From a virus: a DNA stretch of 38,082 nucleotides. Numbering within the stretch: position 1 is the stretch's first letter; each line of letters begins with the position of its first letter. The notes below the pieces were generated by a model. The model did not search any database and was not told the origin of the DNA. It worked only from the letters and a program-made list of their open reading frames with translations. The stretch covers positions 1 to 38,082 of IMG/VR virus record IMGVR_UViG_3300035184_000265. One strand, written 5' to 3'. Of the stretch, positions 171-38,082 are shown in pieces. A program made the translations under genes and the position numbers.

Positions 171-199
171 ATGATACACTCAATCTAACAAAAAGTCAA
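171..199 (-). promoter_or_regulatory. Sigma-70-type early promoter for gp47
   Basis: Reading the minus strand, TTGACT (194-199) is followed after exactly 17 bases by TATCAT (171-176), about 29 bases upstream of the gp47 start. The -35 box overlaps the gp55 stop codon (196-198). It matches the spacing and form of the two other early promoters in this window. Confidence 0.6.
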
Positions 200-1044
200 G
201 TAGTTTTGGCATTCTTAGCTTTTTCAGCAATGTCATGCTCTCTTTTTTGAGCTGATTCCCATTCTGCGTTATGCTGTCTAGTATAACTAGGATTCATATC
301 ATTCATTTCAAGAATATCGTCTCTAATGTTTTGATTACGCTTTTCTAGGTTAATAACACGTACAAACGAGTTAGTAACTGCTGCGGTGTAGTAAGCAAAC
401 GGGTTATTTGACTTAGATTCGTCAAACTGTAAACCAATTTGTGCTAATTGTAAGATTGCTTGTCCACGCATTTCGTCATTGTACGTGTATCCTCGTACAT
501 TGCCTCTAGTTGCATAGCGTTCACACAATTTAATCCACATTTTTGCTAACTCGTCGGTTGCTCTAGTGTGTTTCATACTAAAGTTACCATTATCCATACC
601 GCCTTCCCAGTGACTTTTGCCTACAAGTATTAATTCACCTTCGTCATTAAATTTATAATGCACAAATGGTGGAAAGTTTAACTTGACTCTAGTATCAGCA
701 ATAGTCTTTGGGTTCTTTTTACGTCCGGGCTCTTCCGGAATATGGTCAAACGTCATTACACGGAAGATTAATTCTTCTTTTGTAATTTTTTTATAATCTA
801 TTTCGCATTGTGCTTGTTTAACCTTTTCTCCTGCCAGCTTACGTGCAGCATAATCAGCATCGCCTAGTCGTTTTGCTTTATTGCGTTTAGCTTCAGCAAT
901 GGTTCTGATGTTAATTTTATCAATATCAAGCAAAATAATATCATATTGGTTAAATTCAGCATCTATAAAGCTAGAAAACTTTGATTTTGATTTATGTATT
1001 TCTTTAAGTATATCTTTGTTGTTTAAGTAATTTACTTTTCTCAT
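196..1044 (-). CDS. gp55: Late-transcription sigma factor gp55
   Basis: The 282-aa protein resembles the T4 gp55 family of divergent sigma-70-like factors, which bind host RNA polymerase and recognise the -10-only late promoters. The clearest region is residues about 195-250, with NNPFAYYTAAVTNSFVR followed by a basic helix (NLEKRNQNIRDDIL). This matches the region-2-like core of the family. I chose the ATG at 1044 because GGAGG lies just upstream; an ATG at 1095 would add 17 residues (IIIYTTTGG) coded by the promoter itself. T4 gp55 is 185 aa, so this one carries a long charged N-terminal part, including a GKSHWEGG segment around residue 155. Its own promoter is sigma-70-like, as expected for a gene needed before late transcription. 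Five matching late promoters occur in the window. Confidence 0.82.
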   Translation of the reverse strand: MRKVNYLNNKDILKEIHKSKSKFSSFIDAEFNQYDIILLDIDKINIRTIAEAKRNKAKRLGDADYAARKLAGEKVKQAQCEIDYKKITKEELIFRVMTFDHIPEEPGRKKNPKTIADTRVKLNFPPFVHYKFNDEGELILVGKSHWEGGMDNGNFSMKHTRATDELAKMWIKLCERYATRGNVRGYTYNDEMRGQAILQLAQIGLQFDESKSNNPFAYYTAAVTNSFVRVINLEKRNQNIRDDILEMNDMNPSYTRQHNAEWESAQKREHDIAEKAKNAKTT

Positions 1045-1066
1045 ATTTCCTCCAGTGGTTGTATAT

Positions 1067-1095
1067 ATTATAATATACTCTGTTAATAAAGTCAA
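1067..1095 (-). promoter_or_regulatory. Sigma-70-type early promoter for gp55
   Basis: On the minus strand TTGACT (1090-1095) and TATAAT (1067-1072) are separated by 17 bases, and the gp55 start lies 22 bases beyond the -10 box. It is divergent from, and touches, the late promoter at 1095-1102 that serves the structural genes. Confidence 0.75.
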
Positions 1096-25100: not shown

Positions 25101-25701
25101 AAGTGCAACACAACTAACATTTACAACACCGGCTATGGATGTTGGGTCATATGATTTGGTAATTATTAATCCAATTGAAACAGAACCGGTATATAGACCG
25201 TCTTCTACATTAGTTGTACCTAAGTATCTACCTTATGTGCAGATACTATTACCTTATGCACCTAAACCAGTAACTTATTGGCCAGATGGATCAGTTAAAG
25301 TACAAAACCCGGCAGTGTTGAATGAATGGTACACTACCGATTTTGATAATGGCGGTATTCCAAGTGAAACATATTGGGAAGCACTAGACATTGAAGTATT
25401 TGCTAATGGACGTAGATTGCGTAAAAACCCAATCGAAGTATATTCAGTAGATGAAGGACAGTATAGTCCAGATGGTGACATTTATTTAGAAGCAGAATAT
25501 GCCGTTAACAAAAACGTTGGAGCATATGTGCGCCTAACTACGCCACCACAACCAAATACTGTGCTAACTATAGTTAGAAAGCAAGGTTTAATCTGGAATG
25601 AAATAACAAATGAAACAACAGGCGACTATAAACCACTGGCTCAGTCTAATACAAAGGTAGCAACGTTCTTACGCGGAAAGAGTATTGATCTACCGCGATA
25701 A
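10144..25701 (+). CDS. Giant multidomain baseplate/tail structural protein in the gene 7 position
   Basis: One uninterrupted frame codes for 5,185 aa (roughly 570 kDa), five times T4 gp7 (1,032 aa). It follows gp6 where gene 7 would be, so it is probably a wedge/peripheral baseplate protein, perhaps replacing several T4 genes. Seen in order: a conserved N-terminus (LPKYFRTDKNQKF, residues 26-38; EYYSWNP, NFREYYWLPTGPQ about 130-160); helical parts near 1010 (GHDGSIIKAFGDYRDELILD) and 1080-1130; four short aromatic modules resembling carbohydrate-binding CBM5/12 (about 1437, 1696, 2222, 2850); an FG-GAP-like propeller (2126-3178); paired GxGY repeats (3576-4001); tandem beta repeats (4047-4570); an IPT/TIG domain (4940-5010); and a conserved end (QSNTKVATFLRGKSIDLPR). 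No peptidase or lyase motif was recognised. The gp7 assignment itself is inference from position. Confidence 0.75.
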   Translation: MAYDKDQNEFPLPGENPQRRQSARHLPKYFRTDKNQKFLQSTLDQLLQPGVSEKVNSFVGRKTAKAYDAKADRYLQDVSADRTDYQLEPVSVIKDGLGNTEYLRDYMDYVNQIENFGGDNSNHSRNNKQEYYSWNPSINWDMFSNFREYYWLPTGPQTVVVPGDEKEITSTYTVAVQNALGDLSYLFTPDGATNNPTLKLYRGVTYRFEINATGFPLTFRSARTLEDQFLLTTEVSQQNVENGVIEITLGPGTPNEIYYVADNDINMGGLIRVANQTEASVIDVEAEIVGKKYYTTRDNWSLTNGLKVRFAGDVLPAKYANSEWYVEGVGDKITLISDIDVEVSFPVGIDLLVPFDDTVDGFDSLPFGSATGYPRDKDYITINRSSPDGNFWSRYNRWFHKEVIELSAKINNLVLEIDQSQRANRPIIQFNQGLKLYNFGTKTKQVVDLLDNFTTDAFSTIEGSVGYNIDSVQLAEGMRVLFLNDTDPLVKGRIFEVKFINFTGSGVNGQISLVETTDSLPLAGENVLITRGDDHAGTMWYYDSVTWNKAQEKIAVNQPPVFDIFDANGKSYSDTTIYPASTFRGTKLFSYKDGQGKNDVALGFPISYRSIENVGDIVFNFNFNQDKTQYQIDDQTYSINVNNGYIRQYLSNNQYQLIGAYVKASAFSSQDVVLQYVNDGTKINYPINSYNQSAFVSDLSVNVTVDNKVVYENIDYEIVATADKIKSVKFLNKVSENANIIIKTSSDTSKNQNGFYEIAPNLEKNPLNADVDTFTLGEVTDHVNSITQNAPDFVGVFPGVSNLRDLFNLSVYGTKFIKHSAPLNLAMFSTLDKESNVIKSLRFAKKEYSKFKRMFLEHAEELPFSGTVKQHVDAVISEITKDKINTMPFYFSDMIGYGASITTTITIEDSGTRFYALTKPFVLNELSTRSVSVYLNGTQLIHKQDYVFNTEGYLDVIATKQFGDILEINEYETTNGTYIPSTPTKLGLFPKYIPELFQDDTYGSAPMMIRGHDGSIIKAFGDYRDELILDLEKRIFNNIKTEYDASMFDVNDYLPNTFRNTQFSRSDVYQPMITDFIQWLELIDEDYTVQKYYDRVDAYSWNYSNMNSPTGERLAGWWRGVYRQLFDTDRPHTNPWEMLGFSIKPTWWETQYGPAPYTNENLLLWEDLQAGIIRSATTDFSINKKYARPGLLNFIPVDSNGNLLSPSDSNAVQRFASVGLDSPFTFGDNGPIENVWRQSSDFPFALLTSWMINSPSSLLATGFDRSRQIRNTLGHIVYKPTMNHLTLADLVFPNTSKEEVQVLTSGIVNYVAAYMASSITANYSDYTRKLKSIKNCLAFKLGGFTDKSKFKLILESRTPLNSGNVFIPEENYNILLHTSSPIKTINYSGVIVEKRPTGFVVRGYNKENPVFKWYQPFSSNKDININIGGVSEAFSNWDAGKVYVKGKNIQYLNNYYSVLETHTATSVFETSKFAKLPNLPTVGGADAIFKERFNKFDTQVMSYGSNLDTIQDVVDFLLGYEQWLKAQGFRFEYYDGEEQVLSDWKNSCREFMFWSTQNWTEGALIALSPVADEINFETEYSTVDNIFDNFYGYSLLKADGTKFSEEFTRISRQDPNKFKIRPRKTSDGVYAVQIPIIRKEHIVLLDNTTVFGDVIYQPPTGYRQDRIRSLGYRTVDWDGSLNIPGFIYDQAIVTEWEPWADYNIGALVKHKQFFYSANNKLTGSEIFEASSWTRLANKPESKLLTNFEYKTNQFADFYDLDTDNFDVEQQKYAQHLIGYQNRDYLANIINDDVSQYKFYQGMIKEKGTLNSLNKLFDVLSGADKESIDFYEEWAIKQSQYGASEGFDEVEFKLDESKIRYNPQPFILTNDFTGEETDLIYRISDFQVYKKPAKYNNKPFPTTDDLPQFTKSPGYAHIEDVSIILSEYIDLVNVDFNRIKNNQYLWVGDRNAQWNIYQHVNSGYTITSIKGNATAVSVGSSDKDQFKITIDTSVTDIKVGDIVGIYDLIETDYTTTDSTYPIANQTTVDVDGFFKILKISVNEIIIETNKVISDVNQCKGILTKFTPVRAESYEQANSIAQAGIEKDSLLWVDSDDSGDWRVIKNNKPFNLLQRIEGEDRVPFNSFSDTIAIDNRNVTMAVSTPLSGSLDINGDPVAGDGKVFVYTRGGNNQNFQFTQIVEPVTPIADLQKGFGKGLGISSDGKYLVIGSPDSSNVKTKFKGLYSTTTDYQNTEIVSYNDQLWEAVIDINGANLSQPFGSFTAMVEVLLDNNITGGEIQFNNLLAGNYPFVNTETNHILVRAGKDQYTATGPGDTVFLDWYATTTANQGQDPANLTRAPFGGELPLVTEAFLESGLVVQKKIDVVLYIDAFSVIPSIGDQIDAQGVFGYVEYVYQEGPSCVVYVSGSVGVWQETEALYLETGEFIGQYVRNAPKELAQVDTTEDLGGYWWFDLPATVTTTSIVEDEGRALAIYNIVPAGKTAITSAGGNIYDYNNTEIFEGANNINSYIRTLTSEGTPGAYGNFDIIESDLFVVRSPKTLTDILAVGDDVSLLVLNLPNLNDQSYVDITPAGINYTETNKSHTLFDLWDGYIEFSLDEPDDFGNYYEPLVGQFVRDTTTGATAQVAFYQRDSRNATIFVKDVQGTNNWSLGSENGEPSTIEMLRIPTNPSPVYNVTRDLGNIKATSLGSTNLGIGKLCVFQLDAEIATVPVNDTIIGAEYIIYKDTTILGLPTDANIPSSLNLDWKNIYRVPVNADGEALPLNNYGMFSVYIRENVSTFTPQGSFIVPEQIDGLRIGSNIKIAKRNELYKAFIGCAGNGTEANPGRIYFLNNGIDEEGISYNWDLAKDKRYKGAFGNDKDYYLNDIVFNDGNFYTAQTNIANGDSFNILDWQLATDDKIKSIDYIGYIPNDTDHVYNNDSSLKLDATGLTSFGKDFDISDDGEVLVVTAEYTGAANKVIVYRNVNDNYQNYQEFEATQVDDGFGTQISVSQDGTMIAISAPNANTIAGDERGTVYIYTYNSKASVRAFELTQTLVSSNPVRGEMFGGNIDFDGNMLYVSAFAAPSDDETLFDAYQERLYPESIKPGEKYLLDPNSAGTTATTFDNGFTSFKNIIATNGVVYAYDRIEDSLIFGQTLDLNSPNIRFFGKNIKAKNNHLYVALPSYDNVNTDGTSTNKPGLVLDYRRNDSDKIWETYRAPSKPVNLEKIKRAMLYNKDKNIILQHLDYIDPVQGKIAGPADQEIRYKSSFDPATYDVGTSDLDVDTTQSWGSIHVGQVWWDLTTSKFVNTYLDGSTTYKNNNFNKLFEGSSVDVYEWVESKLKPEAWDTLSLQPEGEARGVTGTTKYGPAAYTENRVYDKIAETFTSYYYYWVKNKTSAPSLEGRNLSVATIAKLIEDPSGSGYKFISLFGDNSFALHNCESLIEDQSTILNIQYWTYSNKYDNIHNQYQILAEGLGTSKPNAEIEQKWFDSLVGYDKQVRPVPDPALTVNERYGMLNKPRQSWFVNRVESLKQLVERTNTVLKSNLVTDEKDISKLLDFDSAPTLISRHYDVAVDTEIDLQFVGVSRLIQTELLPIIEDGKIVRVDIANSGRGYKTAPTYTIAGQGTGAEFEVVINTAGQITEVNVLNTGYNYNNNTQIKVRPFTVLVNADSNIRGNWALYQRDYTARTWDRINSQSYDVTKYWYYCDWYATDYSTFTEIDHVIDQSYSLQGLNDQFGDIVKILNVGTQGWLLLEKIDSQDTTDYTVNYKTIGKQNGTIQLSENLYNFDLSRVGFDTQTFDTQFFDSQPITETRIVLETLRDSILVDDLASEYNKLFFASLRYVFTEQGYVDWAFKTSFVKAQHNVGSLSNRVTYKNDSLESYEKYINEVKPYKAKIREYVSDYTTIEKSGSVVSDFDNPPKYNRDTQSIGVSDVRVINGLLAGTLEDYNTYPNKMWLDNASYKVIEISIADTGSGYLSAPQIIIEGNATAKASLGPGGKLSSVTIVNSGSDYIVAPTVTVNGTQADGGTPAKISAKIGDSLVRSMHTTVKFDRVSGTYFITQLNETEQFAGTGSATDFNLKWPMDMRTNTIEVTINDELVLNSQYEYKNYIDTTGTFNKYYGRIVFDQPPANNSLVVINYKKAIDLLDAQDRISLFYNPTSGQIGKDITQLMEGVDYGGVQVKSYEFAGPTGWDTDNWYAGSWDIFDQDFDDESFETDGSTLVFDLSAPLQSGVKYNVYINGKRVDDDAWDGTTSADSLNNKKAFMAPIIGDGVTNTFTFENETGYYNYLTEINPTWQDNPPKEIITVRRSTSDGSLAPGQDSFDTALQGGDLAYTTALGIKAEEINVDGDGFVTPTTSKGPEETIPGQVLDTLDITVYERPVSGSSLMQSHIFKGDGTTTVFNLREKPISYESVIVKVNYAVVYGKTNYRIDFDNNQIAFYEAPAVGDNVVVMTMGISGENILDYDEFIADGTTQEFLTNIKFTNTIKAYVTVNGDSLAYELIESDDSYEVPGNCVLRFVQPPEANRLIQYGLFDNDIQSFSQVTIDEITADGSSTSYELSKAPFSQDPSQFYTIVTVGNDSNMKVLNAGYSEVFTVEENVLEYKMKVWQTPVGSLSGTRLKVFLNDVEIRFLQDWTFEGASSFNPNITPEAQPGSTVILNRGFAAVGDKLKVYVMDDGDYRFGYWTEDDEFVDTTGTDSATSIIHFDNTYEAGELIRVYQFSNHDGQGIEREHYDVVQRTEMTYQSKGYYDYRQLKKGLIKLRDQAVGVDYVWVALNGRWLTPTADYILLDNKQYIEFTSKVDDGDSIEIIHFSNPPISNKFGWRQFKDMLNRTHYKRLAKEDQYVLEQPLNWYDRSITVVNKIGNLPSPDPKSNIPGVIFIDGERIEFFRKEENVLKQLRRGTLGTGVKDLHTAGTSFYNQSADSTIPYSDTEENVVALSGQYQDMSITYPNDSIEMSVTSIAYNFNNNTVFPLGGQVATVDGEGFRLGVKVLVQDKECATDYVSATQLTFTTPAMDVGSYDLVIINPIETEPVYRPSSTLVVPKYLPYVQILLPYAPKPVTYWPDGSVKVQNPAVLNEWYTTDFDNGGIPSETYWEALDIEVFANGRRLRKNPIEVYSVDEGQYSPDGDIYLEAEYAVNKNVGAYVRLTTPPQPNTVLTIVRKQGLIWNEITNETTGDYKPLAQSNTKVATFLRGKSIDLPR
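16519..19680 (+). other. Seven-blade FG-GAP-like propeller with a large insertion
   Basis: Within the giant protein I count seven blade-like segments of the form G-F-G-x-x-(I/L)-x-(I/V)-(S/D)-x-D-G-x-x-(L/I)-x-(I/V)-(S/A)-A/P. They start near residues 2126, 2190, 2794, 2930, 2979, 3043 and 3143; clear examples are GFGKGLGISSDGKYLVIGSP and DGFGTQISVSQDGTMIAISA. Blades 1-2 and 3-7 are separated by about 570 residues (about 2218-2790). Blade 3 is the weakest match. Confidence 0.55.
20869..22146 (+). repeat. Two GxGY repeat units in the giant protein
   Basis: Residues about 3576-3645 and 3943-4001 share the plan V-x-(I/V)-x-x-x-G-x-GY-x-x-(A/P)-P, then a G/A-rich strand, then a second V-x-(I/V)-x-N-x-G-x-x-Y. 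Examples are VDIANSGRGYKTAPTYTIAG and ISIADTGSGYLSAPQIIIEG. The units flank about 300 residues of other sequence. This type of repeat is common in phage virion proteins; its function is not known to me. Confidence 0.6.
22282..23853 (+). repeat. Tandem beta-sandwich-like repeats in the giant protein
   Basis: Residues about 4047-4570 hold some six units that begin with a motif like GDG-T-T-x-F-x-L and end with I-x-F-x-x-(A/P)-P-x-x-(G/N)-x-x-(I/V)-x-(V/I). Examples are FKGDGTTTVFNLREKPIS, IADGTTQEFLTNIKF and IGDGVTNTFTFENETG. Repeats of this kind are frequent in fibre-like and peripheral baseplate proteins. Confidence 0.55.
24961..25173 (+). other. IPT/TIG-like domain near the C-terminus of the giant protein
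   Basis: Residues about 4940-5010 follow the IPT/TIG plan: a start strand, G-G-x-x-x-T/V-(I/V)-x-G-x-G-F (GGQVATVDGEGFRLG), a short V-x-(V/I) strand with a Cys, T-x-x-x-(I/L)-x-(F/A)-x-(T/A)-P (QLTFTTPAMDVG) and final Y-D-L-V-I-I-N-P. The Ig-like fold is common on phage surfaces and binds sugars or proteins. Confidence 0.65.
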
Positions 25702-28455: not shown

Positions 28456-30384
28456 ATGAGTTATAAATTAAATAAAACTAACGGCGAATTATTAGTAGAC
28501 CTTGTAGATGGTCAACTAGATATTACATCAACAGATATTTCGTTAGTTGGTAGAAATTACAGAGGCTACGGTGAAGCGTTTAATGAGAACTTAATTAAGT
28601 TATTAGAAAATTTTGCTAAAACTAGCGCCCCAGGAACACCGCTAATAGGACAACTTTGGTATGATACCGCTGAACAAAGATTAAAAGTTTATACAGGTGA
28701 TACTTTTCGATCAGCAGCAGGAGCTGTTGTTAGTCAAACACAGCCTAATTTAGTAGCAGGTGACCTTTGGATTGATAGTTTAAATAATAAACTATATTTC
28801 TTTGATGGCACTGATACAGTTTTAGTAGGACCACAGTATACAGCTAGTCAAGGTAAAACAGGAACTGAAGCATTTACAATATTAGACGAAAATGGTCAAG
28901 ACCAAACAGTTCTTCAACTATATATAAATGGTTCATTAACAGGAATTTATTCTAAATCAGAATTTAGACCAAGGGTTAATATTGTAGGGTTTCCAGTAGA
29001 CGCAGACGACAACAGAGTTCCAAAGCGTCAAATAATACGAATTGGATTTAATCCTGCAAGTACTAGTTTTTGGTTCCGCGGAACAGCACAAAGTTCAAGA
29101 GGACTAGTTAGTGACGCTGGCGAAGAATTTCAAGAAACTAACTTTATGAAAACTGACAGAAACACTAGTACAACTGGTTCGTTAGCGGTTAAAAACGCTG
29201 GAGGGTTAACGGTTGGAGTTAGTGATACTGTATATGCGGCATTAAAAATTGATAATAATTACATTACTACATTAGAAACACAAAGAATTGGTAGAGATTT
29301 TACTATTAGAACTCGTAGAGGTAACTTATTTGATAATGCATTTTATGCAGATTCAGATCTAAAGCGTGTTGGAATTTACACAACAACTCCTCAAGTAGAT
29401 TTTGATGTAGTAGGCGACGGTAGATTTTCCGGAGACTTAGAAGTTCAAGGAAATTTAACAATACAAGGCGATACAACTTATCTTAATGTGTCGTCACTAA
29501 GGGTTGAAGATAAAAATATTGAACTAGGATTAATGAATGATAGTGCAATTGGCGACGATGCAGTTGTTGATGGTGCTGGAGTAATTATACGTTCAACAGA
29601 CGGCAATAAGTCGTTAACATGGGAAAATGAAACAGGTAGCTGGACATTAAGTGAAGACTTAGATCTAGCAACTGGTAAAACATTCAATATTAATAACGTA
29701 ACTAAACTATCAACAGATAGATTACATGATTCGGTATTGTATGCTACAGGACTTATACAAGTTGGTAGTTTATCAACTCTAACAGTAGTAGGTAATGTTA
29801 CAATTAATGATAATCTAATTTCAAGTAATGCACTTGCAATTAGTAGTAACGGTACAATAACTATCAACAATCAACTCATCACTGGCGCAGATACACCAAC
29901 TAGTGCTAGAGTTGCTAATAACCTAGGAGGCACAGAAGATTTAGACTCTAGTGTTGCTACTAAAGGTTATGTTGATCAAGAAATTAGTGCAGAACCGGTA
30001 ACAATAGCATTAGATGCTACTGGAATGGTAAATCCATCGTCAGTATTTTCTGATAACATCGGACCGCACGAAGATATTAAAGATGCTATAGAATATCTAT
30101 ACCCGGCAGCACAAAAACAAGCCGGTAGCTATGCAAGGGTGTATGCAACATCATATATTGATGCACCAGTAACAGGTATTGATGTAAATTCTGCAATAAC
30201 AAAAACTACAGTTAATGTGTATGTTGATCCTGACGATAGTTCAACACCAGAATTTGACAGTGTACTAAAAGATATTACAATTAGTTCAGTATCTGGTTCT
30301 GCTAACTTATCACCGTCAAGGGCTAAGGTAGAGTTTCAAGTAGTAGGAGGAGTATGGCAATGGCAACGAACCATACCAGTTTAA
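28456..30384 (+). CDS. Tail fibre-like protein, fibre paralog 2
   Basis: The 642-aa protein starts with the same roughly 130-residue domain as its neighbours: LVGRNYRGYGEAFNENLIKL, GQLWYDTAEQRLKVY, GDLWIDSLNNKLYFF and VLVGPQ. The remainder is beta-rich with fibre-shaft features (LEVQGNLTIQGDTTYLNVSS, a run of short V-x-I-x-x-N strands around residues 430-470) and a TKGYVDQEI segment near 510 that is typical before fibre C-terminal domains. The last 120 residues (GIDVNSAITKTTVNVYVDPD and after) match nothing I know and lack a collar domain. A receptor-binding or fibre-connecting role is inferred from these traits and from the neighbours. Confidence 0.62.
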   Translation: MSYKLNKTNGELLVDLVDGQLDITSTDISLVGRNYRGYGEAFNENLIKLLENFAKTSAPGTPLIGQLWYDTAEQRLKVYTGDTFRSAAGAVVSQTQPNLVAGDLWIDSLNNKLYFFDGTDTVLVGPQYTASQGKTGTEAFTILDENGQDQTVLQLYINGSLTGIYSKSEFRPRVNIVGFPVDADDNRVPKRQIIRIGFNPASTSFWFRGTAQSSRGLVSDAGEEFQETNFMKTDRNTSTTGSLAVKNAGGLTVGVSDTVYAALKIDNNYITTLETQRIGRDFTIRTRRGNLFDNAFYADSDLKRVGIYTTTPQVDFDVVGDGRFSGDLEVQGNLTIQGDTTYLNVSSLRVEDKNIELGLMNDSAIGDDAVVDGAGVIIRSTDGNKSLTWENETGSWTLSEDLDLATGKTFNINNVTKLSTDRLHDSVLYATGLIQVGSLSTLTVVGNVTINDNLISSNALAISSNGTITINNQLITGADTPTSARVANNLGGTEDLDSSVATKGYVDQEISAEPVTIALDATGMVNPSSVFSDNIGPHEDIKDAIEYLYPAAQKQAGSYARVYATSYIDAPVTGIDVNSAITKTTVNVYVDPDDSSTPEFDSVLKDITISSVSGSANLSPSRAKVEFQVVGGVWQWQRTIPV

Positions 30385-30391
30385 CAAATCA

Positions 30392-30399
30392 GATAAATA
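30392..30399 (+). promoter_or_regulatory. T4-type late promoter for fibre paralog 3
   Basis: GATAAATA lies in the 40-base gap between two fibre genes, 25 bases before the start. AGGGG (30412-30416) is the ribosome binding site. Confidence 0.75.
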
Positions 30400-30424
30400 C
30401 TAAGTCGCAATAGGGGTTTAATAA

Positions 30425-32005
30425 ATGGCATATACAATAGATACATACAGCAACGGAAGGTCTTGGAAAATTGAAGACGGTACTGTTGATCAAACTACTG
30501 ATTTAAAATTAGTAGGTAAAAATTACGCAGGTTACGGTGAAATACAAAATGAAAATATGGTATTTTTACTGGAAAACTTTGCAGGGCAAACTGAGCCACC
30601 GAGAAAGATATCAGGTCAAATTTGGTTTGATACAGGTAACAGTAAATTAAAATTTTATGACGGAATTAAATGGCGTACAACAGGCGGCGCAGAAGTTAGT
30701 TCAACAGTTCCAACAGGCCTTAAAGAAGGTGACTTTTGGTGGGACCAAAATAACGAACAACTTTACACATATAACGGCGGCGACTTTGTACTTATCGGAC
30801 CCCAGAGTGCAGGATCAGGCCAAACACAAATTGTAAGCCGTACAGTACGCGACACTACTGGCTCTAGTAGAGGCATTATTACAGCAGTTGTAAATGACGA
30901 AGTTATATTTACTGTAAGTTCACAAGATTTTACAATTGATACAAGTGATGTAGACTCTAATATTTTAGGATTTGATAGAATACGTCAAGGTCTTACATTA
31001 AAGAACACACTAAACAGTAGCGGTGGTATTACATCAGGTGACTGGAGACTAGTAGGCACATCTACTAACTCAGAAAAACTTGGTGGATTATCAGCTAACT
31101 CATATGTACTAAAGACAGATGCTAACTTTAGTCAACTAGCTCGCTTTTCAGATCTAGGTATTGCTATTGGCGATTCAAACGATTTAAAAATTAAACAAGA
31201 AATTATTACTGGTAACGGCACACAAGTAGAACGTCCGATAATTTCAAACGAAACTGGCGGCAGTATTGCATTTAAAGCTAAAAATAATTCAGGTGTTGTA
31301 GTTAACTCAATACAAGTATTAGCAAATGCAATTATTCCTGGTTACGTAAACGGCACAGAAACACAAAACAAGCCAACTGCAACACTTTCTACTATGGGTA
31401 CAGCACAGTATCCTTGGCAAGAAATGTATGCAAAAGACTATATTGGTTTAGGAACGGCTGCAAAAGGTCTAGTACTTGAAGACGATGTTGATGCATATGT
31501 ATTTGACTTTACAAATGGTGTAGCTCCTCCTGCTAACTTACTAAGAAAGCCAAGCAAAGCAGCTGCAGCGAACACAGTAGTAGTAAGAGATCAAGATGCA
31601 GACATCTACGCAAATTACTTCCAGGGTATTGCAACAGAAGCACTATATGCTGACTTAGCAGAGAAATATACTACAGATGCTGAATATCCAGTTGGTACAG
31701 TAATGGCAGTTAGCTTAGATGATAATGCAGAAGCAACACAAGCAATGCGTGATACTATGGCAATTGGCGTTATATCATCTAAACCAGCATACTTAATGAA
31801 TAAAGCATGTGACGGACAAGCAATTGGTCTTAAAGGCCGAGTTCCAGTTCGTATTATTGGTCCAGTTAGAAAAGGACATTCAGTATTTGTTGACGAAAGC
31901 GGATGCGCAAGCACTATGATCAATGGCGGATGCTTAGTAGGCATAGCACTTGAGACTAATCTCGAAGAAGACGAGAAATTAGTTGAGTGTGTGTTGAAGG
32001 TATAA
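30425..32005 (+). CDS. Tail fibre-like protein, fibre paralog 3
   Basis: The 526-aa protein carries the shared N-terminal domain (LVGKNYAGYGEIQNENMVFL, GQIWFDT, GDFWWDQNNEQLYTY, VLIGPQ), then a shaft region with TMGTAQYPWQEMYAKDYIGL. Residues about 405-526 form a distinct end domain: LYADLAEKYTTDAEYPVGTV, then IGVISSKPAYLMN, GLKGRVPVRIIGPVRKG and GIALETNLEEDEKLVECVLK. This end domain occurs in many fibre and peripheral virion proteins after an ADLAE motif and may be a trimerisation or tip domain. It contains two Cys in CASTMINGGC. The stop codon lies inside the next late promoter. Confidence 0.65.
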   Translation: MAYTIDTYSNGRSWKIEDGTVDQTTDLKLVGKNYAGYGEIQNENMVFLLENFAGQTEPPRKISGQIWFDTGNSKLKFYDGIKWRTTGGAEVSSTVPTGLKEGDFWWDQNNEQLYTYNGGDFVLIGPQSAGSGQTQIVSRTVRDTTGSSRGIITAVVNDEVIFTVSSQDFTIDTSDVDSNILGFDRIRQGLTLKNTLNSSGGITSGDWRLVGTSTNSEKLGGLSANSYVLKTDANFSQLARFSDLGIAIGDSNDLKIKQEIITGNGTQVERPIISNETGGSIAFKAKNNSGVVVNSIQVLANAIIPGYVNGTETQNKPTATLSTMGTAQYPWQEMYAKDYIGLGTAAKGLVLEDDVDAYVFDFTNGVAPPANLLRKPSKAAAANTVVVRDQDADIYANYFQGIATEALYADLAEKYTTDAEYPVGTVMAVSLDDNAEATQAMRDTMAIGVISSKPAYLMNKACDGQAIGLKGRVPVRIIGPVRKGHSVFVDESGCASTMINGGCLVGIALETNLEEDEKLVECVLKV

Positions 32006-32008
32006 ATA
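32001..32008 (+). promoter_or_regulatory. T4-type late promoter, exact consensus
   Basis: TATAAATA is an exact match to the T4 late octamer, 30 bases before the next start. Its bases 32003-32005 are the TAA stop of the preceding fibre gene. AGGAAG (32025-32030) follows as ribosome binding site. Confidence 0.82.
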
Positions 32009-32038
32009 ATAGTAGCACTTAATTAGGAAGAAACGAAA

Positions 32039-32968
32039 ATGCCAGATTTAGTAAGAGGTACCAATGATCCCCAGGGTGCTTCTAGAATTACCGCAGCTAA
32101 CTACAACGATCTACAGTCGTCTGTTGCAGATTTACTTGGTGATGGATTTGCTGATACTGGTTATGGACAAGAACCTGTTAGTTCAGCACTATTAGCATCA
32201 GACATAGTAAGAGCCGAACACATGAATTTGTTAAGAGACGATATTAACAGAATCCAAGTACACCAAACTGGAAGTCTTAGTTCGTTATTAGAACTTGTTC
32301 CAGGAGAAAGAGTTAGTGCTAATGACATCGGCGGCATAGTTGATAAAGGATTCAACCAATTTGTTGCTGTTGTTAATATTTTAATAGCTAATAAAGATGT
32401 AGTTGATGGAACCCAAGTAACACTTGAAACAGCAACTACTAGTACACGTTTTGCAGCCTGGAATGGTAAAGTAGTACATAGTTTTACAGTAGCATTTGAT
32501 AATGCTACACACAGACGTGCTTATTTTAACGCTGGCGGCCAAATACAACTAAGTGCAACTATTGAAGGTGATACTACACAAAAAGGCGCAGACTGGAATT
32601 CTATATTAACAAATATGGGAACAATTAAGTTTAGTGCTAATACAACTTCAAAAACAGGTTCGGCAGGAATATTACAACCTGTTGGTAATTATGATTTGAC
32701 AACAAGTTATCAAAAGATATTCGAACGTAGAGGGCAAGCTGATTACTACGCAGAAAATAGATTTTTTATATATGCTAAAGAAGTAAGCAATCAGGCAATT
32801 CAATTTAGTATAGAATTTGAGGACAACGACCAGGGCGACCCAAATGATGATGAATTAATCCGCGGCACAATAACTAGTATAGTTAAACAATTAAGACCAA
32901 CCGGATCTTACGTAACTGTAAGCTCGCCATCATACAGCACACAATCTGCATTATCTGAAGGAGATTAA
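32039..32968 (+). CDS. Probable virion protein, NAGG-domain paralog 1
   Basis: The 309-aa protein has an N-terminal helical part (ITAANYNDLQSSVADLLGDG, then HMNLLRDDINRIQVHQTG at about 60-80) and a C-terminal beta-rich part marked by THRRAYFNAGGQIQL (from about residue 156), WNSILTNMGTIKF and AENRFFIYAKEV. It shares both parts with the following gene. A strong late promoter precedes it, so it is almost certainly a virion component; fibre tip, whisker or head decoration cannot be told apart from sequence. It ends in a Ser-rich tail (YVTVSSPSYSTQSALSEG). I know similar proteins from marine phages but no assigned function. Confidence 0.55.
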   Translation: MPDLVRGTNDPQGASRITAANYNDLQSSVADLLGDGFADTGYGQEPVSSALLASDIVRAEHMNLLRDDINRIQVHQTGSLSSLLELVPGERVSANDIGGIVDKGFNQFVAVVNILIANKDVVDGTQVTLETATTSTRFAAWNGKVVHSFTVAFDNATHRRAYFNAGGQIQLSATIEGDTTQKGADWNSILTNMGTIKFSANTTSKTGSAGILQPVGNYDLTTSYQKIFERRGQADYYAENRFFIYAKEVSNQAIQFSIEFEDNDQGDPNDDELIRGTITSIVKQLRPTGSYVTVSSPSYSTQSALSEGD

Positions 32969-32971
32969 TAC

Positions 32972-34069
32972 GTGGTAGCAACTGGTGGAATTATTAATAA
33001 CCAAGAGTATATTGGATTAGTTGAACGACTAACTGATATACTAGGCAACGGCTCTGGACAACAAGGTTACGGTCAACGTGTATTATGTTCAGAAAATTAT
33101 GGAGCAATTGGTAACCTTTTAGTACAAAATGATCATTGGAATGCATTAAGAACAGATATTAATAAAGCCTATAATCACCAAACTGGTGGTGCCTCGGGTA
33201 TAACGTCAATTGACAATGGTGCTATTATTGGTGCAGATGCATCTGGCACAAGTGTTACTAGAATATCGGGTACTGATACATTTACTATTAATGGTACTAA
33301 CACTCTTGAAGGTGTTAATGATTTTGATACTAAAATTTCAAACATCGAATCATCATCTAATTCTATTGCTGCAGGACAGTTTGATCTTACTACAGGAAGA
33401 CAAGCTGTAAATTCTTCAAGAACTACGCCCTGGGGTGTTAATAATATTAATATTATGGTATATTCAGAATTTACTGTTGAGTTCGAAGGCGGGTATACTA
33501 CAACAAATAGTTCCGGCACTTCAATGACAGCTAGTGCTACAGACCATCGTAGACACTTTTTTAATGCCGGTGGTGAAATTAGATTGAGTGCGGGACTTAC
33601 TGGCTCAACAGCAAAAGACTCAGACTGGGGTACACTGTTAGGTAACATGGGTCAAGTTATTTTTGGTAAAAATGCTACTACAAATGGCACAGGTACAGGT
33701 CGAGCAAGAGACGGATCAACTAACGTAGATAATGCCGGCGGCATTGAAAGTGCATTAGGTAATTATCAAGCAACAACTGGTTACCAATTAATATTCCAAA
33801 AGAATGGTTCTCAAGCAGAATACGCTGAAAACCTTGTAGCTATATATGTGAAACGAAACAACACAGCTACTACTCTTACATTTTTGTTTGAATTTTACGA
33901 TAATGACTCAGGTGACCAAACTGGTATCGGCCCTGGCGTTGATGAAAATGTTTTATCTGGTGGAGGAAGTCATTTTTGTGGCCTTGACTTTAAACGTCCT
34001 AATGCAGCAAACGGAGTTGATATTCCGGCACCAGCTGTAGCAGTCCAAACGGAATTACGCCTCACATAA
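32972..34069 (+). CDS. Probable virion protein, NAGG-domain paralog 2
   Basis: The 365-aa protein starts with GTG at 32972, supported by AAGGAG 8 bases upstream and only 3 bases after the previous stop. It repeats the plan of its neighbour: HWNALRTDINKAYNHQTGG (about residues 54-72), DHRRHFFNAGGEIRL (from about 191), WGTLLGNMGQVIFGK and YAENLVAIYVKRN. A Gly/Ser/Thr-rich insert (about 75-130, 160-185) makes it longer. It closes the late block: the next signal is an early promoter that begins 3 bases after the stop. The role is unknown; virion protein by location. Confidence 0.55.
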   Translation: MVATGGIINNQEYIGLVERLTDILGNGSGQQGYGQRVLCSENYGAIGNLLVQNDHWNALRTDINKAYNHQTGGASGITSIDNGAIIGADASGTSVTRISGTDTFTINGTNTLEGVNDFDTKISNIESSSNSIAAGQFDLTTGRQAVNSSRTTPWGVNNINIMVYSEFTVEFEGGYTTTNSSGTSMTASATDHRRHFFNAGGEIRLSAGLTGSTAKDSDWGTLLGNMGQVIFGKNATTNGTGTGRARDGSTNVDNAGGIESALGNYQATTGYQLIFQKNGSQAEYAENLVAIYVKRNNTATTLTFLFEFYDNDSGDQTGIGPGVDENVLSGGGSHFCGLDFKRPNAANGVDIPAPAVAVQTELRLT

Positions 34070-34072
34070 CAC

Positions 34073-34101
34073 TTGACAAATGCTTTTTCAGGCTATATAA
34101 T
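34073..34101 (+). promoter_or_regulatory. Perfect sigma-70-type promoter opening the accessory unit
   Basis: TTGACA (34073-34078), a 17-base spacer and TATAAT (34096-34101) match the bacterial consensus at all twelve positions. The start codon of the next gene is 23 bases beyond the -10 box, with GGAGAA at 34115-34120. No TAAATA late core occurs in this gap. Confidence 0.85.
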
Positions 34102-34124
34102 ATATACTATACCTGGAGAATTAT

Positions 34125-34472
34125 ATGGACGAGAGATTAGAACAAGCGTTAGACTTTTCAAACTACATGGTTACATTAAATAACCAACGTAGAGTTATTC
34201 ATGAACAATTTTTAGAAACTTGTGTACATTATTTAAATGGAGGCAAATTTTCTATAAGCCGAGATTTAATTACCTTTTGTCAAACACTACGACATAATGA
34301 TCAAGATAGTGCAATTCTAATTGACGACAACAATACTCCTGTTGAAGTAGAAGATCTACAGAAATTTCTAGATGATATTCTTGATATTTACTTTACTACG
34401 TCTTATGAATATCTTGATGAATATAATAAAATTAAAAAGAATAGAAAAGTAGAAGGTCTTGTTAATTTATGA
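34125..34472 (+). CDS. Conserved small phage protein of unknown function
   Basis: The 115-aa protein begins ERLEQALDFSNYMVTLNNQR and continues with an all-helical, acidic sequence containing LIDDNNTPVEVEDLQKFLDD. Similar proteins are familiar as conserved hypotheticals in cyanophage- and pelagiphage-type myoviruses, but I know of no function. Being first behind a perfect early promoter, it should be made soon after infection. No DNA-binding, membrane or catalytic motif is visible. Its stop overlaps the next start as ATGA. Confidence 0.6.
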   Translation: MDERLEQALDFSNYMVTLNNQRRVIHEQFLETCVHYLNGGKFSISRDLITFCQTLRHNDQDSAILIDDNNTPVEVEDLQKFLDDILDIYFTTSYEYLDEYNKIKKNRKVEGLVNL

Positions 34473-35329
34473 GTAAAGGTGTACTATTATTTGCACAAAA
34501 CAATCACTCAATTGATTATATTAAACAAGCAATATTTTGTGCTAAAAAAATTAAAAAACACCTTGGTATACCTGTAGCAATTGCCACAGACAATTCAGAT
34601 TATCTAAAAGCTACATATCCTTATTACGAAAAATATATTAGTCATGTAATAGAGTTAGACTGGTACGAATGTAAACAAAAGCGCACATACCGAGATGGTA
34701 CTATGAGCAAAAAAGATTTAGAATGGCGAAATCATGATCGTGCAACAGCATATGATATATCACCGTTTGACGAAACTATAGTAATGGATACTGATTTTAT
34801 TATTGGTAATGATATTTTATTAAATGCATTTGATACAGACCAAGATTTTTTAATATTTCGTCACATAACAGATCTTAATATGGATAGGCCTGATGAATAC
34901 AGGTTTAATAAAATTAGTGATCGAAGTATAGACATGTATTGGGCTACAATATTTTATTTTAAAAAGTCAGAAGGCATGAAACGGTTCTTTGATCTTATAA
35001 CTCACATTAAAGATAATTGGAATTTTTATAGACTTACGTATCAAATTGTAAATAAAACCTATAGAAATGATTTTGCATTTAGCATTGCAATACACATATT
35101 AAATGGTTTTCAGAGAACCAACTGGCCAAATGTATTACCAGGAAGACTATGGTTCACTAGCGATGCTGATGTGTTAGTAAAATTAGAAGACGAAACTTAT
35201 ACTTTTTTATTAGATAAAAAACATTGGGTAGGACATTATCATGCAGGTTGTGTAAAAGATGTAAACATCCATATTCTAAATAAGTTTGCACTAGATAGAT
35301 TTATTGACGAGGACTTAAAAAATGAGTAA
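34469..35329 (+). CDS. Glycosyltransferase-like protein, GT-A type, tandem paralog 1
   Basis: The 286-aa protein looks like a small GT-A enzyme. The N-terminus (GVLLFAQNN) starts a beta strand, PVAIATDNSDY gives a second strand, and FDETIVMDTDFII carries a D-x-D metal/nucleotide-sugar motif at residues 107-109. YWATIFYFKKSEGMKRFFDL follows the acceptor-side pattern of GT8-like families, and HWVGHYHAG near residue 250 could supply the late metal-binding His. No signal peptide or membrane helix is seen, so it should act in the cytoplasm. The donor and acceptor are unknown. It overlaps the preceding gene by 4 bases and the next by 8. Confidence 0.62.
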   Translation: MSKGVLLFAQNNHSIDYIKQAIFCAKKIKKHLGIPVAIATDNSDYLKATYPYYEKYISHVIELDWYECKQKRTYRDGTMSKKDLEWRNHDRATAYDISPFDETIVMDTDFIIGNDILLNAFDTDQDFLIFRHITDLNMDRPDEYRFNKISDRSIDMYWATIFYFKKSEGMKRFFDLITHIKDNWNFYRLTYQIVNKTYRNDFAFSIAIHILNGFQRTNWPNVLPGRLWFTSDADVLVKLEDETYTFLLDKKHWVGHYHAGCVKDVNIHILNKFALDRFIDEDLKNE

Positions 35330-36161
35330 AGGTTTTTGTTTATTAGCACAAAATAATTCTAAAACAAACTATATTCGTCAAGCGTATGCACTTGCACTTA
35401 GTTTACATTTGTATAACAAAGGTCAGAAGATTAGCTTAATTACTAATGACAAAGTTCCTACAGAATGGCAAGGCGTATTTGATCAAATAGTTCCTATTCC
35501 TTGGGACGACAATGCTGAGGACAGTGACTGGAAAATACAAAATCGTTGGAAGGTGTATCATGCTAGTCCTTATGATGAAACTATTGTATTAGAAGCTGAC
35601 ATGCTAATTACATCAGATATAACACACTGGTGGAAAGAACTTTCAAAACGTGAACTATTTTTTGTTAGTAATGTTAGAACATATCGAGACGAAGTTGTAA
35701 CTAGCAGATTTTATAGAAAAACATTTGACGCAAATGAATTACCTAACTTATATAGTGCATTACATTACTTTAAAAAAGGCGATACAGCAAAAGAGTTTTA
35801 TAACCTATTAGAAATTATTGTAAACAATTGGGCTTTGTTCTATTCTAAATATGCGCCAAATGAATACCAAAAATGGTGTAGTATTGATGTGTCGATGGCC
35901 ATCGCTAGTAAGATATTAGGAAACGAACACGATGTTACTGATCCTAATAGTTTTATTACATTTACTCATATGAAGCCGCTTGTACAAGGATGGTATAACA
36001 AACCGGAAAAATGGACAAGGGTTACAGGAAAGTATTTTACTGAAGGTAAATTATTCTTAGGAAATTACTTGCAAAATAGAGTACTACATTATGTTGAAGA
36101 TGAATTCTTAACAGATGAATTATTAGAGAAGATAGAAAATGGAACTACACTTTTACCTTAA
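35322..36161 (+). CDS. Glycosyltransferase-like protein, tandem paralog 2 with altered D-x-D
   Basis: The 279-aa protein is a diverged copy of the previous gene. Both start MSKG-x-x-L-x-AQNN, both have a DETIV strand and both a lone-domain length. Here the metal motif reads E-A-D (residues 91-93, VLEADMLI) instead of D-T-D. SALHYFKKGDTAKEFYNLLE aligns with the acceptor-side segment of paralog 1, and ITFTHMKPLVQGW takes the place of its late His region. E-x-D variants exist in some GT-A families, so loss of activity need not follow. No membrane segment is seen. Its last 23 bases overlap the next gene. Confidence 0.6.
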   Translation: MSKGFCLLAQNNSKTNYIRQAYALALSLHLYNKGQKISLITNDKVPTEWQGVFDQIVPIPWDDNAEDSDWKIQNRWKVYHASPYDETIVLEADMLITSDITHWWKELSKRELFFVSNVRTYRDEVVTSRFYRKTFDANELPNLYSALHYFKKGDTAKEFYNLLEIIVNNWALFYSKYAPNEYQKWCSIDVSMAIASKILGNEHDVTDPNSFITFTHMKPLVQGWYNKPEKWTRVTGKYFTEGKLFLGNYLQNRVLHYVEDEFLTDELLEKIENGTTLLP

Positions 36162-36717
36162 CTTTAAAGATGAAACAGGCGAAATTTGGAAATTAACAAA
36201 TGAGTTAGATGTCTCTACACCTTACATTGAAATTAGTAGAGAAACAATGTTAGATTTTGCAAACGAAGTAAAGAAGATGGATGACTATATGGTTATTCCG
36301 TCCAGCGACAAAACATTAAAATATGAAATTGTTCTTAAACATAAAGATTTAGATATTTTTGATGTAGACAAGAGTGTACATCATCTCCCAAAAGTAACTA
36401 GTGTAGACACTAACAATGCATTTATAATAAAACAAAATTTAGAAAGTGCAACGTGGACAATCAGTTTAACAAGTGAACTTAGAGAATTATTATCAAGCAC
36501 TATGTATTACAAAGATAAAAATCAATACATATATGTTACACAAAAAGATAATCCAACAGTGTTATTAGATACACTTGATATAAAAATGTACAATGTGTTG
36601 TACTCAGAAAGTTTTAACATGACAGAACAAAATAAAAAGGTTGCTCAGAACCCCGATGTGAGTTTATACTGTGGTAAAGTATTTGAAAACTATTTGCATA
36701 TTCAGGAGACAGTATGA
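36139..36717 (+). CDS. Unknown protein in the glycosyltransferase/radical SAM cassette
   Basis: The 192-aa protein (start ELHFYLNFKDETGEIWKLTN) matches no family I know. It is mixed alpha/beta with many charged residues, one Cys near the end (LYCGKVFENYLHI) and no signal peptide or membrane helix. The start at 36139 overlaps the preceding gene by 23 bases and has only a weak purine-rich site (AGAGAAGA) upstream, so translation is probably coupled. Its stop overlaps the next start as ATGA. A scaffold or substrate role in the cassette is a guess from position. Confidence 0.55.
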   Translation: MELHFYLNFKDETGEIWKLTNELDVSTPYIEISRETMLDFANEVKKMDDYMVIPSSDKTLKYEIVLKHKDLDIFDVDKSVHHLPKVTSVDTNNAFIIKQNLESATWTISLTSELRELLSSTMYYKDKNQYIYVTQKDNPTVLLDTLDIKMYNVLYSESFNMTEQNKKVAQNPDVSLYCGKVFENYLHIQETV

Positions 36718-37607
36718 GTACTATAAAGGTAGTTGACCAAGATATTATATTCTTATCGTATGATGAACCTAATGCAGAAAAAAACTATGCAGATTTGTGT
36801 AGTAAAGTACCTTGGGCTAAACGTGTACATGGTGTAGAAGGTAGTGACGCTGCACACAAAGCATGTGCTGACCTAAGCGAAACAGAATACTTTATTACTG
36901 TGGATGCAGACAACATTGTTGATCCAGAATTCTTAAATCAAGAAGTTGATTATGAAGCACTAGGATTATCAGCTGAACATGTGTTTAGTTGGTGTGGCAA
37001 GTTGTATGTTAACGGACTAATGTATGGTAACGGTGGACTTAAAATGTGGACACGTAAGTTTGTACACAATATGAAAACACACGAACATTCAGAAGAAGGC
37101 GATGAACGAGGCAAAGTAGAATTTTGCTTTGACGACAAGTATTATCAGTTTAATGAAAACTTTAGTGTATCTTATACAAACGCAACACCTTGGCAGGCTT
37201 GGAGAGCAGGTTTTAGAGAAGGTGTTAAAATGAGTTTAGATCAAGGATCTAAAGTAGAAGATTTACGTAGAGTATGGTGGCAAAACTATCAACGCTTACT
37301 TGTTTGGAGCCAGATAGGTGCCGATGTTAAAAACGGTATATGGAGTATACTAGGCGCACGACAAGGATGTTATCTAACAAACTGTACACCTTGGGACTAT
37401 GCTAATGTACGTGACTTTGAATGGCTAAACAACTTTTGGGAAAAAGAAGTAAAGGGTGTAGATCCCCTCGAAACATCTATTCATTTAGGAACTGAAATAC
37501 TAAAAGGAACGGGTGCAGATATATCAACTACTCCTCTTGACGAACAACAAAGTAAGTTTTTTAAAAGTGTGTATCAAAACACTCCGAGGATAATTAGAAC
37601 TCGATGA
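36714..37607 (+). CDS. Glycosyltransferase-like protein, GT2-type (third in the cassette)
   Basis: The 297-aa protein begins with a GT-A-like Rossmann half: IIFLSYDEPNAEKNYADLCS, HGVEGSDAAHKACADL and YFITVDADNIVDPEF, giving D-A-D at residues 64-66. The order start strand, acidic/asparagine site and D-x-D is that of GT2 enzymes. Then come FSWCGKLYVNGLMYGNGGLK and a Trp-rich region (TPWQAWRAGFREG, VWWQNYQRLLVWS) that may form the acceptor site. It is unlike the two tandem paralogs apart from the fold. Its product and acceptor are unknown. It overlaps its neighbours by 4 bases on each side. Confidence 0.62.
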   Translation: MSTIKVVDQDIIFLSYDEPNAEKNYADLCSKVPWAKRVHGVEGSDAAHKACADLSETEYFITVDADNIVDPEFLNQEVDYEALGLSAEHVFSWCGKLYVNGLMYGNGGLKMWTRKFVHNMKTHEHSEEGDERGKVEFCFDDKYYQFNENFSVSYTNATPWQAWRAGFREGVKMSLDQGSKVEDLRRVWWQNYQRLLVWSQIGADVKNGIWSILGARQGCYLTNCTPWDYANVRDFEWLNNFWEKEVKGVDPLETSIHLGTEILKGTGADISTTPLDEQQSKFFKSVYQNTPRIIRTR

Positions 37608-38082
37608 GCAATGAACAACGCATACAACTACTAGAAGAAAAGCGTGAAAAAATAAACAGTGTAAGTTGTTCATTTTGTACAGCCAAGTGGCTACAAACTA
37701 CTCTAATGTTACAGAATGGTTACAATCACAGTTGTCATCATCCTGCACCGCACAAGATTCCGTTACATGAAATTGAAATAAATCCAGCAGCATTGCACAA
37801 CAGTAAGTTTAAAAAAGAACAACGTGCTAAGATGCTTAATGGAGAACGTCCTAAAGAGTGTGGATACTGTTGGAAGATTGAAGACTTAGATAAAAACTAT
37901 TTTAGTGACAGGCATTATAAAACAAGTGATACGTGGGCTTGGGATAGATTTGAAGATATTGCTAAAAGCAATCCACAAGACGATGTGTATCCAAGTTACT
38001 TAGAAGTATCATTTAGTAATGCTTGTAATTTTGCGTGTGCATATTGTTCACCCGAGATTAGTAGCAAGTGGATGGAAGATAT
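37604..38082 (+). CDS. Radical SAM protein with N-terminal twitch-like domain, 5' part
   Basis: The first 159 codons are present; the gene leaves the window at the right edge. Residues 141-148 read CNFACAYC, the CxxxCxxC motif that holds the 4Fe-4S cluster for S-adenosylmethionine cleavage, preceded by YLEVSFSNA as in other family members. The N-terminus has C22-x2-C25, C44 with two adjacent His, and C86-x2-C89 (RPKECGYCWKIEDL), the plan of the twitch-type auxiliary cysteine domain found in phage radical SAM proteins, where it precedes the barrel. The start at ATG 37604 overlaps the previous stop as ATGA. The substrate is unknown; peptide or sugar modification would fit the neighbours. Confidence 0.8.
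   Translation, partial: MSNEQRIQLLEEKREKINSVSCSFCTAKWLQTTLMLQNGYNHSCHHPAPHKIPLHEIEINPAALHNSKFKKEQRAKMLNGERPKECGYCWKIEDLDKNYFSDRHYKTSDTWAWDRFEDIAKSNPQDDVYPSYLEVSFSNACNFACAYCSPEISSKWMED

Follow-up and report, generated by a model that had tools for sequence, protein, structure and literature searches.

Architecture of the cassette

The window, as the DNA analysed here is called, comprises the full 38 kb of a virus record (IMG/VR record IMGVR_UViG_3300035184_000265, positions 1 to 38,082). At its right end lies a cassette of six open reading frames (ORFs) that starts at 34125, directly behind a sigma-70 promoter, and whose members overlap one another in turn by 4, 8, 23, 4, and 4 bases, exactly as given in an initial annotation made from the sequence alone. 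The cassette comprises:

34073..34101, + strand: sigma-70 promoter TTGACA-17-TATAAT (12/12 consensus match, 17-base spacer)
34125..34472, + strand: gene 1, conserved protein of 115 aa (~56% mean column identity in its family)
34469..35329, + strand: gene 2, GT8/glycogenin-like glycosyltransferase paralogue of gene 3 (profile-profile comparison with gene 3)
35322..36161, + strand: gene 3, GT8/glycogenin-like GT-A glycosyltransferase, as predicted from profile, AlphaFold2 (AF2) model, and Foldseek
36139..36717, + strand: gene 4, 192-aa protein, fast-evolving (alignment) and predicted to be rich in beta strands (AF2)
36714..37607, + strand: gene 5, probable GT2-like enzyme, paralogue of a downstream gene, GT2b (weak Pfam/profile matches, DxD motif)
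37604..38080, + strand: gene 6, N-terminal 159 aa of a twitch-domain radical S-adenosylmethionine (radical-SAM) protein (open at the window edge; NCBIfam NF033640)

Related phages were checked for scattering of these genes, the outcome that the initial annotation had named as telling against its cassette, and the genes proved not to be scattered. Genes 1 to 5 follow one another in just this order at 104 of 111 distinct loci, each with at least four upstream ORFs, and three more differ by one insertion. These loci are the best-matching contigs, so the counts hold for this lineage and not for phages at large, and contigs that are related do not count as independent. The gene preceding gene 1 is of the 32039, 32972, or 30425 structural type in 94 of the 104.

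What follows gene 5 is a different matter. At 102 loci the next gene is a twitch radical-SAM gene in 54 cases, GT2b in 30, and something else in 18. The sequence that follows is long enough for a wider look at 90 loci; at 67 of these a radical-SAM gene occurs among the next 12 genes, and at the other 23 none does. Since the gene after gene 5 varies and those 23 loci do without, the radical-SAM genes are a variable insertion, outside the core. The fixed unit is genes 1 through 5 plus GT2b, with radical-SAM genes inserted between and beyond. The initial annotation was right to see a radical-SAM gene in the cassette, but it falls outside the part that is fixed, and a relative can have as many as 23 such matches.

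Promoter and the switch of control

The promoter already recognized as perfect in the initial annotation is the sole 12/12 site within 30000-38082 and among the few 11-12/12 sites of the whole window. It is kept in relatives: of 107 distinct regions upstream of gene 1, 82 have a sigma-70 site that matches at least 11 of 12 positions and 97 have one that matches at least 10, compared to about 0.4% and about 5%, respectively, of shuffled upstream regions. Sites matching at least 11 of 12 positions were found before gene 2 in 0 of 107 cases, before gene 5 in 0 of 117, and before the radical-SAM gene in 0 of 94. The conservation of order and promoter, together with the lack of such sites before genes 2, 5, and 6, agrees with the earlier view of a single coupled transcription unit. 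Downstream, GT2b has its own site of at least 11/12 in 33 of 90 copies, and in long relatives strong sigma-70 sites also stand in other intergenic gaps, ahead of genes that lie outside the structural block.

The other side of the boundary is marked by these features:

32001..32008, + strand: late-type box TATAAATA, before the structural gene 32039-32968
32039..34069, + strand: two small structural/tail-associated genes, judged by synteny (in nearly all relatives they stand just ahead of the cassette)
196..1095, - strand: gp55-like late sigma factor (phmmer to T4 gp55 7d7c, E 9e-6)

Because the window encodes a gp55-like late sigma factor (one that bears an N-terminal extension), a T4-type late promoter system is taken to be present. 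The box TATAAATA lies within 60 bases of the 32039-type structural gene in 51 of 103 relatives and was found before none of the cassette genes tested in relatives. With a conserved sigma-70 site before gene 1 and a late box confined to the structural gene, it is well supported that control switches from late-type to early-type at 34073, as the initial annotation had supposed in placing an early-type promoter right after late genes. The cassette would then be expressed early in infection. The same annotation described the preceding 33 kb as late structural genes, which suits the gene at 32039 with its T4-type late box but not the first gene, 196-1095, which encodes a nonstructural sigma factor.

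Proteins of the core

The profile of gene 3 matches glycogenin chains in the PDB (E 8.5e-6), and its AF2 model (pLDDT 94.7) is matched by Foldseek, the check suggested at the outset, to glycogenin, GlyE, and LgtC with probability 1.00, all pointing to the GT-A fold. Since the global TM-scores, taken by query length, are moderate (0.36-0.50), the assignment is restricted to fold class: judged by the model, gene 3 is a GT8-like GT-A glycosyltransferase in its fold. D93 and H216 are invariant, and position 91 is D or E (E in the window). Gene 2 is homologous to gene 3 (profile-profile E 2.3e-31, 26% identity), which supports a GT-A fold for it as well, and its D107, D109, and H268 are invariant across 41 sequences. 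The pair shows features of the GT8 type: the predicted GT-A fold, a DxD-type motif, and a C-terminal histidine. Against the Pfam family models, one of 40 members matched Glyco_transf_8 (0.0038) and two of 40 Mannosyl_trans3.

Gene 5 and GT2b constitute one family, and D64 and D66 of gene 5 are invariant in 51 sequences. The match of gene 5 to GT2 in Pfam is weak (E 0.075), and 0 of 51 family members match at 0.01. Comparison by hhalign with four E. coli GT2 proteins gives E 0.0085 and a probability of 4.7% with the DxD motifs in register, against E 0.22 for the control. Gene 5 is probably a GT2-like enzyme. Thus, of the three glycosyltransferase-like genes initially annotated, two are borne out as GT-A proteins, gene 3 by profile, AF2, and Foldseek and gene 2 by its homology to gene 3, while the E-value and probability just given fall short of confirming gene 5 as a GT2. 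The glycosyltransferase-like enzymes of the cassette are presumably active. No match to genes 2, 3, or 5 was found by tblastn amongst 50,697 cultured phage records, so there is no annotated relative to lend them a function.

Gene 1 found no match in family searches. Gene 4 has a mean column identity of 27% and is predicted by AF2 to be beta-rich (pLDDT 89.7, pTM 0.66). It matched nothing in the PDB and is without a solved relative, and its matches in a viral structure library are limited to uncharacterised phage proteins. Gene 4 was considered as a relative of the tail genes, but sequence comparison with them gave no link.

The variable island beyond the window

Gene 6 matches NF033640 with E 5e-39, in accord with its initial annotation as a radical-SAM protein, at a score (134.5 bits) below the curated cut-off of 170 for an ORF cut by the window edge. 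It has the N-terminal twitch part and, at residues 141-148, the CX3CX2C motif of the N_Twi_rSAM type; the radical-SAM domain is seen in a full-length relative, L002:10891-12273, that matches PF04055 above cut-off.

The island past 38082 was read from a near-identical contig, L002/L082, whose genes 3 and 5 are identical to those of the window, and there the cassette does run on past the right edge, as had been anticipated. After gene 5 come two twitch radical-SAM genes, a 452-aa protein, an N-SPASM radical-SAM gene, a 275-aa protein, and two unknowns, and further on another radical-SAM/SPASM gene, GT2b, and one more radical-SAM gene. A by-eye label of SGNH-like for the 275-aa protein was dropped, as no family match supported it.

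Relatives have from 0 to 23 Radical_SAM matches per contig, counting some below the Pfam cut-off. In the longer island-bearing relatives there are 3 to 23, most of them in one island, while two relatives have none on the contig. The islands also hold genes for Asp/Asn hydroxylases, 2-oxoglutarate (2OG) oxygenases, methyltransferases, short-chain dehydrogenases, and a QueC-like PP-loop protein. That of phage G008 has a UDP-glucose/GDP-mannose dehydrogenase, 48% identical to a copy in Bdellovibrionota, and that of phage G003 an amidinotransferase closest to inosamine-phosphate amidinotransferase (E 1.1e-93). Genes for A-type carriers or IscU-like Fe-S assembly proteins occur in some relatives only and so are no fixed companion. 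In some relatives (L011:10894-11394 and L241:2304-2801) a gene inserted between gene 5 and the radical-SAM gene matches the C-terminal domain of malonyl-CoA decarboxylase and possibly has an acyltransferase-type fold.

The phage lineage

The window comes from a marine T4-like virus of bacteria. It has baseplate genes of the T4 superfamily (gp53-, gp5-, gp25-, and gp6-like PHROGs), a 15.6-kb ORF at 10144-25701, and tail-fibre-like genes. Its gp6 is ~34% identical to those of the best-matching cultured phages, mostly jumbo phages. The genes within 32039..34069 gave no match of their own in family searches. The last of them, 32972-34069, has a clearly different version in L002 (6259-7356), despite gene 3 and gene 5 proteins that are 100% identical to those of the window, possibly an allele swap. 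The nearest system found in a culturable phage is a small radical-SAM gene cluster in the jumbo phage Vibrio phage K566 (L239, OZ196521.1 161548-165950), at 22-26% identity.

Chromosomal counterparts in Bdellovibrionota

Relatives of gene 5 and GT2b are also found in bacterial genomes. Several of these matches are probably phage contigs binned into metagenome-assembled genomes, because they carry tail genes and genes 1-4 alongside. Others (L268, L270-L272, L274, L275, and L281) are clearly chromosomal loci of Bdellovibrionota, where a GT2-like gene lies near a twitch radical-SAM gene, other radical-SAM/SPASM genes, and a methyltransferase-like gene. Gene-5-like genes occur as well at L278, L279, L283, and L287-L334, in Photorhabdus, many Streptomyces, Micromonospora, and Salinispora; the one in Photorhabdus apparently adjoins other glycosyltransferases and an ABC transporter, as read by eye.

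Strong N_Twi_rSAM genes are present in 30 of 114 Bdellovibrionota genomes searched, with up to 12 per genome among the matches listed, and in 0 of 14 control genomes at the same threshold. Around them are GT2, UDP-sugar dehydrogenase, PMT_2, and HTTM families and Asp/Asn hydroxylases. One contig of a Bdellovibrionia chromosome (G019:C1:745000-775000; L335, L336) packs some twelve or more twitch/SPASM radical-SAM genes into 30 kb. The best identities between phage and Bdellovibrionota proteins are 67% for a radical-SAM type called R5, 59% for the twitch type, 48% each for UDP-sugar dehydrogenase and a second radical-SAM type, and 45% for the methyltransferase-like protein. A Bdellovibrionota B12 radical-SAM copy has as its best NCBIfam neighbour a C-methyltransferase of ribosomally synthesized and post-translationally modified peptides (RiPPs).

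In the tree of one radical-SAM subfamily, phage and Bdellovibrionota rows are intermixed over several branches. This mixing makes either exchange or old shared ancestry likely, but it does not give the direction of transfer. Genes 1 through 4, including the GT8 pair, were not found in the chromosomal islands of Bdellovibrionota, nor was a precursor peptide or conserved small ORF in those sets. A first scan of genome contigs with the full radical-SAM protein detected no relative by that method, though Bdellovibrionota relatives exist. A search of full-text literature, in an incomplete collection, for Bdellovibrio and radical SAM with glycosyltransferase or polysaccharide returned nothing relevant.

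What the island may do

I propose, tentatively and knowing that the idea is somewhat more apt to be wrong than right, that the cassette remodels a host glycan early in infection and that the radical-SAM/oxygenase set serves as exchangeable tailoring. The cassette would be the start of a variable island, of the type of a host recognition cluster (HRC), behind the tail genes of a T4-superfamily lineage. A host sigma-70 promoter would switch on early a fixed core consisting of the small protein, two GT8-type enzymes, their fast-evolving partner, and the GT2-like enzyme, with a second GT2-like gene further downstream, often under its own sigma-70 promoter. The stretch between gene 5 and GT2b, and the one beyond, would differ in content from phage to phage, with genes for radical-SAM proteins, 2OG oxygenases, Asp/Asn hydroxylases, methyltransferases, PP-loop proteins, UDP-sugar dehydrogenase, and amidinotransferase. 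On the cytoplasmic side, the core may add sugars to a host glycan precursor, for example that of lipopolysaccharide (LPS) core or capsule; the variable enzymes may tailor the added sugars; and the surface of the infected cell, so altered, may shut out competing phages.

The proposal is made because the core is fixed and its promoter of the early type, because the predicted GT8-like fold lies near those of GlyE and LgtC (the latter an LPS galactosyltransferase) with invariant DxD-type motifs, because relatives carry sugar-nucleotide or sugar-type chemistry (the dehydrogenase of G008 and the amidinotransferase of G003), and because some Bdellovibrionota islands place the shared genes near GT2, PMT_2, and UDP-sugar dehydrogenase genes. 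Several points weigh against it. No flippase, polymerase, or lipid-carrier transferase was recognized among the Pfam families of the phage islands. Peptides are the more usual substrates of radical-SAM/SPASM enzymes, Asp/Asn hydroxylases, and B12 radical-SAM enzymes. The Bdellovibrionota sets often adjoin housekeeping genes (in one case that of ribosomal protein L11), outside any evident O-antigen locus. Finally, a position beside tail genes suits the modification of tail fibres equally well. The initial suggestion that all enzymes of the cassette modify one common substrate stepwise is no more than a conjecture.

A broader form of the idea, possible though on the doubtful side, is that marine T4-like phages and Bdellovibrionota share or exchange an undescribed multi-enzyme pathway for a modified surface molecule, taking in the N-twitch/SPASM radical-SAM subfamilies, the GT2-like, methyltransferase-like, UDP-sugar dehydrogenase, and amidinotransferase enzymes, and the oxygenases. 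The phages would have coupled this pathway to an early GT8 core so as to rewrite the host surface.

The targets might instead be tail or fibre proteins of the phage itself: enzymes produced early would be ready when the late proteins appear, with glycosylation or cross-linking tuning host recognition or hiding the virion. In nearly all relatives the block does come straight after the last structural genes, GlyE is a protein (adhesin) glycosyltransferase, and SPASM-type radical-SAM proteins and Asp/Asn hydroxylases typically modify peptides or proteins. That neighbourhood may be plain synteny, however, the promoter is a separate one of the early rather than the late type, and gene 4 has no sequence match to the tail genes, and I consider this explanation unlikely, if by no means far-fetched.

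Less probable still is that the island makes a cofactor, a metabolite, or a diffusible or peptide-linked product (RiPP-like and sugar-decorated) by a pathway common to Bdellovibrionota. It would account for the sharing with Bdellovibrionota islands of about 10 enzyme families, amongst them several radical-SAM subfamilies at 44-67% identity and the GT2-like, class-I methyltransferase-like, UDP-sugar dehydrogenase, PP-loop, and amidinotransferase families, and for the relationship of the B12 radical-SAM enzyme to RiPP C-methyltransferases, but not for cellular sets that lack a precursor peptide or conserved small ORF, nor for phages whose core occurs without radical-SAM genes.

It is very unlikely that phage DNA is the target of the cassette, glycosylated at a hypermodified base as a defence against host restriction: some phages do use glycosyltransferases in this way, the expression signal is of the early type, and a QueE-like radical-SAM gene was read by eye in the replication region of G001, but T4 DNA glucosyltransferases have the GT-B fold, and the nucleic acid counted among possible substrates in the initial annotation is weakened, as far as DNA goes, by the finding of thymidylate-synthase-family (hydroxymethylase, PF00303) genes in two of 10 relatives and of a TGT-family transglycosylase in 0 of 10, on contigs that may be incomplete.

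Radical-SAM and glycosyltransferase genes are frequent yet unexplained in marine viruses, and distinguishing the core (the GT8 pair, gene 4, and the GT2-like gene) from the exchangeable radical-SAM set provides, with the conserved early operon and its Bdellovibrionota counterparts, a testable handle on whether the target is the host surface, the phage's own fibres, or a metabolite.

Comparison with known systems

Islands of glycosyltransferase and radical-SAM genes beside T4-like tail genes are already published (PMC7029224, PMC5332604). No description of the fixed early core or of its Bdellovibrionota counterparts was found in the literature searched, an incomplete collection that proves little. 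The trio responsible for GtrABC-type O-antigen glucosylation (flippase, lipid-carrier GT2, and membrane transferase) is absent among the window genes and the Pfam families of the phage islands.

In T4-like marine phages, namely pelagimyophages and cyanomyophages, the HRC sits in the structural region beside tail fibre genes; its content varies and includes a GT8-rich complement of glycosyltransferases as well as radical-SAM cassettes. The GT8-rich islands of pelagimyophages have likewise been read, as a guess, as altering the surface (PMC7029224). The island described here resembles the HRC in lying, with variable content, next to the tail genes of a T4-superfamily phage, in having glycosyltransferase and radical-SAM genes, and in the company of baseplate, tail, and late-sigma genes. 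The HRC is bounded by VrlC and gp14; here the likeness is one of gene content and tail neighbourhood, and the upstream sequence includes the 15.6-kb ORF at 10144-25701. Unlike the HRC, the island belongs to another phage lineage (to judge by gp6), has a five-gene core under a conserved sigma-70 promoter, and in several relatives contains many more radical-SAM genes.

The T4-like environmental genome TARA_ERS488813_N000010 was reported in 2017 to have Fe-S assembly genes along with 12 radical-SAM genes (PMC5332604). It is similar in being a T4-like marine phage with many radical-SAM genes, and some relatives of the window have A-type carrier/IscU-like genes. The available text gives counts and does not describe a promoter, the order of the genes, a glycosyltransferase core, or counterparts in cells.

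Gene 6 and several downstream and cellular genes match the N_Twi_rSAM model NF033640, here in islands of multiple paralogues. Genes 2 and 3 share with the glycogenin-LgtC-GlyE group of CAZy family GT8 the predicted GT-A fold, the DxD-type motif, and the invariant C-terminal histidine, though at a great distance (~12-15% identity). With the radical-SAM/GT2-like islands of Bdellovibrionota the phage islands have many enzyme families in common, but those islands are chromosomal and not linked to tails.

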